Below are positions 43,290 through 45,017 of a stretch of 64,000 nucleotides of DNA, one piece after another. The number at the start of each line of letters is the position of its first letter. Position 1 is the stretch's first letter. The position numbers and the translations under genes were made by a program. The stretch is from positions 228,543 to 292,542 of the forward strand of contig CACJLA010000001.1 in the NCBI GenBank assembly GCA_902594145.1, written 5' to 3'. The notes beneath the pieces are model-generated. The model was not told where the DNA came from, did not search any database, and worked only from the letters and a program-made list of their open reading frames with translations. The DNA is from an uncultured Alphaproteobacteria bacterium. GTDB lineage: Bacteria > Pseudomonadota > Alphaproteobacteria > HIMB59.

Positions 43290-43772
43290 TTAATGCTTGC
43301 TTATACTATCGTATTTTTTTTGGATTGACTCAGGCCATACAGATTTCATGTAAGCTAAGATAGACCATATGTCATTGTCATTTAGCTTGTCGTTTCCCTG
43401 CATCTTACCATCATAGTTTTCATTATAAATTTTAAATCCATACTTGATCACGCTAAAGAGCTGTTCTTGACTGTGATGCCATGTGTGACCTGTACCATTT
43501 AATGGTGGAGAAAGGTTATGCCCATCTTCATCTTTTTTTGTGCTCCAGTTAGGCTGACCTTGTAAATTATCTCCATGACATGATGCACAATGAGTCACAT
43601 AAAGAGATTTACCTAAGTTAATTTTACTGATTAATTTTTCATCAATCTCCATTATGGTTATTTCGTTATTTTTTGGCTCAATTGGATTGGGCTGTAAGAA
43701 ATAAAGAAGAGTAATTATTATTACTGCTAAACCAATAATAAATATTAAAACGCTTTTTAAAAGAAACGACAA
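43290..43772 (-). CDS. Membrane-anchored c-type cytochrome
   Basis: The 160-residue protein has one N-terminal membrane anchor (SVLIFIIGLAVIIITLLYFL) and one heme-binding CASCH with LYVTHCASCHGDNLQG. A likely axial Met is in GKMQGND. It should sit in the periplasm and carry electrons. The start is TTG at 43772, 5 nt after the csoR stop, so both belong to one minus-strand transcript. Such monoheme cytochromes accompany copper-handling genes in marine bacteria, and the CsoR/DUF4396 context suggests regulation by copper; a redox partner cannot be named. Confidence 0.87.
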   Translation of the reverse strand: MSFLLKSVLIFIIGLAVIIITLLYFLQPNPIEPKNNEITIMEIDEKLISKINLGKSLYVTHCASCHGDNLQGQPNWSTKKDEDGHNLSPPLNGTGHTWHHSQEQLFSVIKYGFKIYNENYDGKMQGNDKLNDNDIWSILAYMKSVWPESIQKKYDSISKH

Positions 43773-43777
43773 TATTT

Positions 43778-44071
43778 TTAAATATTAAATTTTCTAAGTA
43801 GATCTTGTAATTCTTCTATCTTTTGTTTTTTTTGTTTATCATTTTTTTTCATAGCATCGACAACGCAGTGATCAATGTGCTTATTGAGTATGTTATTTTC
43901 AAGAGATTTTATTGCAGAAGTTATGGCTCTTGTTTGTTGTAAAATTTCAAGACAATATCTTTTTTCGACAATCATTTTTTCCACACCCTTTAGTTGGCCA
44001 TGAATTCGATTAATACGATGGATATTTTTAATATGGTCTGGATTTTTATTTATTTTAATTACATTTGACAT
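43778..44071 (-). CDS. csoR: CsoR-family metal-sensing transcriptional repressor
   Basis: This 97-residue all-helical repressor of the CsoR/RcnR/FrmR family has the opening HRINRIHGQLKGVEKMI. The copper(I) ligand set Cys-His-Cys is intact: Cys40, His65 and Cys69, with the same spacing as Cys36, His61 and Cys65 of mycobacterial CsoR. This favours copper sensing over nickel or formaldehyde. It is divergent from the DUF4396 gene and a perfect 22-bp operator-like palindrome lies between them, so it probably represses itself, the cytochrome and the membrane protein until copper binds. Confidence 0.9.
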   Translation of the reverse strand: MSNVIKINKNPDHIKNIHRINRIHGQLKGVEKMIVEKRYCLEILQQTRAITSAIKSLENNILNKHIDHCVVDAMKKNDKQKKQKIEELQDLLRKFNI

Positions 44072-44083
44072 ATTACATACATA

Positions 44084-44105
44084 TACTATATACCAGTATA
44101 TAGTA
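44084..44105. promoter_or_regulatory. Probable CsoR operator (perfect inverted repeat)
   Basis: TACTATATAC, spacer CA, GTATATAGTA is a perfect 10-bp inverted repeat centred between the divergent csoR (start 44071) and DUF4396 (start 44116) genes. CsoR proteins bind such short-spaced palindromes, usually with a more GC-rich centre. The position overlaps where promoters of both genes must be. The only DNA-binding protein gene in the window is the adjacent csoR. Confidence 0.75.
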
Positions 44106-44115
44106 AATAAAAAAA

Positions 44116-44562
44116 ATGTCTGTCTCAGCTCTCGCTAACTTTAATTGGAAATGTAAACACACATGGAAAAAAAGTGCACACAACACTAAATGGTGTTTAA
44201 TTGGATGTGCCATAGGAGATCTTGGCACAATATATTACTTTCAAATAAATGAGATTGCTTGGCCTACCATGAATATTATGATTTTAGCAATAATTAATGG
44301 ACTGATTACTAGCATAATCCTTGAAACAATAATTCTATTAAGGCAAAGTTTTTCTTTACGAAATGCAATTAGCACTGCTCTTGGAATGAGCTTTATTTCA
44401 ATGATATCGATGGAAATTGCTATGAATGTCACTGACGTTATTTTAACCGGAGGAGCAATGCTCACATGGTGGGTCGTTCCTATAATGCTTTTTGTAGGAT
44501 TTATTACTCCTTGGCCTTATAATTACTGGAGATTAAAAAAGTATAATATTGCGTGTCATTGA
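44116..44562 (+). CDS. DUF4396-type membrane protein, putative copper-related
   Basis: The 148-residue protein has about four hydrophobic segments. The opening cysteine/histidine-rich part (WKCKHTWKKSAHNTKWCLIGCAIGD) and the methionine-rich SMISMEIAMNVTD are as I recall DUF4396 proteins, which often lie next to copper genes. Cys, His and Met are natural Cu(I) ligands, so a copper-handling or copper-transport role is a fair inference. It is divergent from csoR across a palindromic operator. Its stop overlaps the nuclease gene by 10 nt. No biochemical function is established for the family to my knowledge. Confidence 0.72.
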   Translation: MSVSALANFNWKCKHTWKKSAHNTKWCLIGCAIGDLGTIYYFQINEIAWPTMNIMILAIINGLITSIILETIILLRQSFSLRNAISTALGMSFISMISMEIAMNVTDVILTGGAMLTWWVVPIMLFVGFITPWPYNYWRLKKYNIACH

Positions 44563-45017
44563 AAAAATTCATCTTATGCTCAATATCTTCCTTATTTCTG
44601 TTATTAAATAACCTTTTTGCCTCTCATGTTACCGTCATTGATGGAGATACAATTAGATTAGGTGATGTGAAAATACGCTTTAGTGGAATAGACGCCCCTG
44701 AAATAAACCAAACATGTGTTGCAAGTGAAGGGAAAGTTGCATGTGGAAAAATATCAAGAGATTTTTTAATTGAAAAAGTTACAAATAATAAAATTAGTTG
44801 CACAGATGAAGGAAAAGATTTTTATGGAAGAGTATTAGGTGAGTGCTTTGTTAATGGAGAGTCTTTGAGTAGTTACTTAGTCAGAGAGGGTTTTGCATTT
44901 GCATTCAGAAAATATTCAAACAAATATATAGAGGATGAAGAGTATGCCAAATTCAATAAGCTTGGTATGTGGTCCATGGAATTTCAATATCCATGGGACT
45001 ATCGAAGAAAAAATTAA
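44553..45017 (+). CDS. Secreted thermonuclease-like (SNase) protein
   Basis: The 154-residue protein has an N-terminal signal segment (FILCSISSLFLLLNNLFA) and one staphylococcal-nuclease OB-fold: VIDGDTIRLGDVKIRFSGIDAPE contributes the active-site Arg and Asp, and YGRVLGECF the second Arg region. Two extra cysteine pairs (CVASEGKVACG, ISCTDE) may form disulfides in the periplasm. It probably degrades extracellular nucleic acid. The GTG start at 44553 overlaps the DUF4396 gene; a TTG at 44559 is an equally possible start. The stop overlaps the DadA-like gene by one base. Confidence 0.85.
   Translation: MSLKKFILCSISSLFLLLNNLFASHVTVIDGDTIRLGDVKIRFSGIDAPEINQTCVASEGKVACGKISRDFLIEKVTNNKISCTDEGKDFYGRVLGECFVNGESLSSYLVREGFAFAFRKYSNKYIEDEEYAKFNKLGMWSMEFQYPWDYRRKN

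Follow-up and report, generated by a model that had tools for sequence, protein, structure and literature searches.

A CsoR-type regulator and a DUF4396 membrane protein in a putative copper-defence module of a CopA-less marine alphaproteobacterial lineage

A candidate copper-defence locus

Positions 43290-45017 of the window (the whole 64,000-nucleotide stretch of HIMB59 DNA analysed here) probably hold a periplasmic module for copper defence, controlled by CsoR and derepressed by Cu(I), in a streamlined marine alphaproteobacterial lineage that lacks CopA. The locus couples known CsoR regulatory logic to an unusual output, and does so in a lineage where the search for classical copper systems came up empty. 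Comparative evidence gives good support to its reading as a copper-type regulon. The original prediction of a copper island gains strong indirect support from the ligands of the regulator, a type-1 operator in sister genomes, a cupredoxin, kinship of the cytochrome to CopJ, and gene fusions; it is not supported where it called the cytochrome unusual. The proposal is built at the sequence level on gene content, ligands, operator conservation, synteny, fusions and the absence of other systems, from which we infer the Cu(I) response, the repression and all activities of the DUF4396 protein and the cytochrome. According to a published survey, SAR11, with HIMB59 counted in, has eschewed copA (PMC4771312), which raises the question of how such bacteria survive copper. 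The locus is a concrete, regulated candidate for that role, and ties DUF4396, a family with almost no literature, to copper through a CsoR switch, conserved neighbours and fusions.

Pfam backs all four genes of the locus. csoR (43778-44071, minus strand; PF02583, E = 8.5e-25) encodes a DUF156-family repressor and is followed after a 5-nt gap by the second gene of its transcript (43290-43772, minus strand), which encodes a membrane-anchored monohaem cytochrome c (PF00034, E = 1.1e-12; PF13442) assigned to the CopJ type with the aid of synteny. Divergent from this pair, across a 44-bp gap from csoR, lies the gene for a 148-aa DUF4396 membrane protein (44116-44562, plus strand; PF14342, E = 8e-38). 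Its end is overlapped by 10 bp by the start of a gene for a secreted nuclease homologue with an SNase domain (44553-45017, plus strand; PF00565), and the two probably share one transcript. The identities first given to the CsoR, DUF4396 and cytochrome c genes are thus borne out, while the gene list in the title of that prediction was right in its three names and left out the SNase gene. The SNase gene follows DUF4396 in the loci of the genus that were read, whether csoR is present or not; behind the DUF4396 gene of SAR11 and of the sister family f2, no SNase gene was seen.

The regulator

The nearest solved relatives of the window regulator are CsoR proteins. In alignment with the Geobacillus (4m1p) and Streptomyces (4adz) proteins, its C40, H65 and C69 fall on the Cu(I) ligands and its Y39 on the conserved tyrosine; all three proteins have in common the DUF156 domain, the Cys-His-Cys ligands and a tyrosine before the first cysteine. 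The full ligand set claimed earlier is confirmed by the alignment to 4m1p. The Cu-type ligands are also retained in the divergent CsoR copies of the relatives G030 and G038. Clear divergence marks the CsoR of G030 (64% identity over the match to the window protein) and that of G009. csoR is the only DUF156 gene in its own genome. It was found in 27 of 150 relatives, all of one genus, and by coordinates DUF4396 adjoins it in all 27.

Two other identities within the DUF156 family were considered. FrmR, a formaldehyde sensor, is missing the third-ligand cysteine (it has Glu64) and adjoins a formaldehyde dehydrogenase; such an identity is held unlikely, C69 being present and no formaldehyde dehydrogenase gene lying nearby. 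CstR, a persulfide sensor, is marked by two cysteines without the His ligand and has sulfur genes as its targets; this too is held unlikely, with His65 present and no sulfur gene in the module. A rival reading built on the latter takes the regulator as CstR-like and the module as serving sulfur metabolism, the cytochrome accepting electrons from sulfur oxidation. It draws on reports that two-cysteine DUF156 regulators can sense persulfide and control cytochromes, and that the targets of Thermus TTHA1953 include c-type cytochromes and an uncharacterised membrane protein (PMC10318464). We regard it as very unlikely, as it is opposed not only by the Cu-ligand histidine and the absence of sulfur genes, but also by the cytochrome's nearest kin, which are copper-cluster cytochromes, by the cupredoxin that joins or replaces the cytochrome in relatives, and by the fusion of DUF4396 to copper oxidases elsewhere.

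The candidate operator

The gap between the divergent genes contains an inverted repeat at 44084-44105, TACTATATAC-CA-GTATATAGTA, with two 10-bp arms about a central CA. The 22-bp repeat is where it had been predicted to be; the central CA is not palindromic, so the repeat is not the strictly perfect palindrome that had been claimed. An equally good repeat arose in 0.85% of Markov-shuffled versions of the 44-bp gap, and in the AT-rich window about one such repeat is expected by chance, exactly the number found. Judged on this single sequence alone the repeat is weakly significant, and the case for it instead comes from its position and its conservation across relatives. Across sister genomes, 24 of 24 window-type csoR loci keep it with hardly a change, at a mean column identity of 0.99 against 0.79 (left) and 0.87 in the flanks. 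The sole position that varies repeatedly is the centre, where C becomes T; one genome reads GTAG. Among csoR-less relatives (L004-L009, L011, L012), no such repeat was found.

In the more distant relatives G030 and G009, the same spot reads TATACT-CCCCCCC-AGTATA. This fits the textbook RcnR/CsoR type-1 operator, described for RcnR as TACT-G6-N-AGTA (PMC3902906). Aligned to this form, the window core TATACT-N7-AGTATA (44082-44100) reads TATACT-ATATACC-AGTATA. The window thus has a conserved repeat at this place but, where G030 and G009 have the C7 tract, only CC; compared with known CsoR operators it is AT-rich, and the G/C-tract is nearly gone. Known CsoR proteins have a repeat-type operator in their own promoter region, as that of the window probably does.

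Sigma-70-like promoters are predicted on both sides (consensus matches only): ATTACA-18-TATACT for DUF4396 (44058-44087, plus strand), with an alternative -35 TTGACA at 44065-44070, and CAGACA-16-TATACT for csoR (44095-44122, minus strand). The predicted -10 of the DUF4396 promoter overlaps the repeat and that of csoR lies within it. The sites from this sigma-70 scan fall on the repeat, but their total number is below the shuffle mean and so not above chance. Its place between the divergent genes, taken with its conservation, makes 44084-44105 a candidate CsoR operator.

The genome search proposed with the original prediction returned one occurrence of the repeat, at this locus. The next-best match in the genome has 3 mismatches, and a reversed control pattern gave 6 such matches. 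Further operator copies sought in this genome and in G030, G009 and G038 yielded none that was convincing. As the site is single-copy in its own genome, in G030 and in G009, the regulon looks local and confined to one site.

The cytochrome and its cupredoxin partner

The cytochrome gene has a TTG start, conserved in close relatives, and encodes a single CxxCH haem domain (C62-A-S-C65-H66) and a GHTWHH region. Its product is 72% identical to the G030 homologue, and the gene stands behind csoR in the loci examined. Over the membrane anchor and haem domain it is 34% identical to a cytochrome of the Cupriavidus metallidurans pMOL30 cop cluster, encoded there between DUF411 and a cupredoxin. Plasmid homologues, where read, all lie within copper-resistance clusters; that of Pseudosulfitobacter accompanies multicopper oxidases, DUF411 and a P-type ATPase, and that of Phaeobacter a multicopper oxidase, a P1B ATPase and CueR. 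The view that a cytochrome with csoR is unusual is therefore withdrawn: homologues of this protein are standard members of copper-resistance clusters. On this kinship the window cytochrome belongs to the CopJ type; within the window its link to copper runs through csoR only. In naming the pMOL30 proteins CopJ, CopI and CopG we go by gene order.

In G030, G009 and G038, a gene for a CopI-type periplasmic cupredoxin (PF13473, PF00127) lies between the operator and DUF4396, a position at which the window species has no cupredoxin gene. The locus and its sisters thus parallel the pMOL30 cop cluster and the roseobacter copper plasmids in the GHTWHH region of the cytochrome and, in the sister genomes, in the CopI-type cupredoxin. 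They differ in that no CopF/CopA ATPase, CopA oxidase, CopB, CopG or CopRS accompanies them. In published work copG and copJ were on one transcript, and in Rubrivivax a copI mutant was more copper sensitive than a copA mutant (reviewed in PMC7558416).

Absence of classical copper systems

About 30-52 relatives were searched for each family of copper systems. Heavy-metal P-type (P1B) ATPases (TIGR01525) were found in 0 of 52 relatives, 17 of them near-complete, with 14 of 14 controls positive, and the predicted lack of a CopA-type ATPase holds across these genomes. As the window's own genome is 80% complete, its missing pump rests on the relatives. With controls likewise positive, no multicopper oxidase was found in 31 relatives, no heavy-metal RND pump scored above the family cut-off in 31, and no HMA chaperone domain was found in 40. 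A literature search on SAR11 copper toxicity returned no matching paper. The suggestion that the DUF4396 protein is itself the copper-handling component fits this absence of CopA and the other classical systems. CsoR-copZA operons follow the same logic, a Cu(I)-sensing repressor before a membrane protein gene. They differ in that their CsoR targets copZA while the window CsoR would target DUF4396 and the cytochrome, and in the P1B ATPase and HMA chaperone, absent from the genomes searched here.

The DUF4396 protein and a proposed mechanism

The DUF4396 protein matches PF14342 with 130.4 bits (cut-off 27) over profile positions 1-139 of 141. It shares with this uncharacterised family, which includes multicopper oxidase fusions, the full-length match, a [H/W]C-x2-G-[C/D]-x2-G core and a C-terminal P-x-N. 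Compared with the wider family, the short SAR11/HIMB59 form has W where the core H would stand, and adds an N-terminal C-x-H and a C-terminal CH. An alignment of 49 homologues shows C13, H15, C27, C31, M99, M103, C147 and H148 to be invariant. An AlphaFold model built with these homologues has four helices, but its confidence (mean pLDDT 53) is too low for a fold search or to back the arrangement set out below. Searching solved structures with the sequence gave nothing up to E 1, and tblastn against plasmids gave no match.

The N- and C-terminal tails are positively charged, so by the positive-inside rule both ends are probably cytoplasmic. That arrangement would place C13, H15, C27, C31, C147 and H148 on or close to the cytoplasmic side, and M99, M103, E100 and D107 within a membrane helix, a placement that would suit Cu(I) pick-up inside the cell and passage through the membrane.

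We propose that apo-CsoR sits on 44084-44105, overlapping both putative -10 boxes, and shuts off both csoR-cytochrome c and DUF4396-SNase. A rise in cytoplasmic Cu(I) would load C40, H65 and C69, CsoR would leave the DNA, and both transcripts would come on. The DUF4396 protein, its cysteines near the probable cytoplasmic face, would then take charge of Cu(I) at the inner membrane and most likely pass it outward. On the periplasmic side the CopJ-type cytochrome c may bind copper, oxidise it or shield electron transfer, and in sister species the CopI-type cupredoxin would work there too. A bolder extension, which we put forward tentatively and judge less probable than its negation, is that DUF4396 represents a new class of small Cu(I) transporters which, with CopJ/CopI, replaces the P1B ATPase in SAR11/HIMB59, and which in one lineage is under CsoR control. 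If true, a P1B ATPase would have been replaced in bacteria that are among the most abundant in the sea.

Distribution and neighbours of DUF4396

DUF4396 is present in 122 of 150 relatives, as against 27 for csoR, and occurs almost throughout SAR11 and the HIMB59 order, also where csoR and the cytochrome are missing. Many Pelagibacteraceae (SAR11) genomes carry it at 72-79% identity. In 44 of 58 SAR11 loci its immediate upstream neighbour, encoded on the same strand, is the same cytochrome or cupredoxin (28 cytochrome, 16 cupredoxin), at gaps of -3 to 32 nt; the 58 loci are kin by descent, with several different gene orders among them. Further away, DUF4396 forms the N-terminal part of a multicopper oxidase fusion in two distant alphaproteobacteria (L148:4723-6642, L149:5773-7728), next to P1B ATPase and CueR genes. 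It follows a copA-type oxidase and copB in another, and lies two genes from a CsoR in a further alphaproteobacterial family. Several SAR11 loci have no copper neighbour, none was found in five loci of the sister family f2, and in distant bacteria a recognisable copper gene lies within 6 kb in about 5 of 24 DUF4396 loci and is missing from about 19. With so many loci lacking a copper neighbour the link is not universal, and across bacteria it is suggestive.

The sparse copper neighbourhoods at distant loci, together with invariant cysteine pairs that could do redox work as well, lend something to a membrane or redox role for DUF4396, such as thiol chemistry or electron transfer with the cytochrome, that has no tie to copper and whose neighbourhood partly reflects hitchhiking in compact genomes. 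This appears improbable to us, since the cytochrome/cupredoxin association recurs in several SAR11 gene orders, DUF4396 is fused to multicopper oxidases, and it occurs near a CsoR in a second family.

P1B ATPases are present in 21 of 23 larger, distant genomes with DUF4396, so the protein is not a general substitute for CopA. This coexistence also bears on a further alternative, in which DUF4396 is a copper supply or maturation factor for cytochrome oxidase or other cuproproteins and not a detoxification protein, csoR having been added in one lineage. Its near-universality in SAR11 and the HIMB59 order without csoR or the cytochrome would suit such a role, and the multicopper oxidase fusion could mean copper loading. 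Against this, the regulated DUF4396 is controlled by a repressor that should let go when copper is in excess, and goes together with CopI/CopJ-type stress proteins, and we find a supply role rather unlikely, preferring copper defence for the CsoR-controlled locus.

Further features of DUF4396 loci

At L166:5638-8280 four genes stand in a row, for DUF4396, for an unknown protein of 214 aa, for CsoR and for a glutaredoxin-MauE fusion; DUF4396 is matched three times in this genome, once below the cut-off, and P1B ATPases not at all. At G015:C120:2617-2983 a DUF4396 match is broken by several stop codons, possibly a decaying copy or an assembly error. A DUF4149 membrane protein recurs a few genes from DUF4396 in SAR11 and f2 (L137:5639-6028, L171:3082-3510, L172:4946-5374) and may be another functional partner of it. 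One of the SAR11 gene orders has a cytochrome c' and a divergent cytochrome b561 ahead of the cytochrome c-DUF4396 pair (L089:352-873, L106:3586-4113), which suggests a wider electron-transfer neighbourhood.
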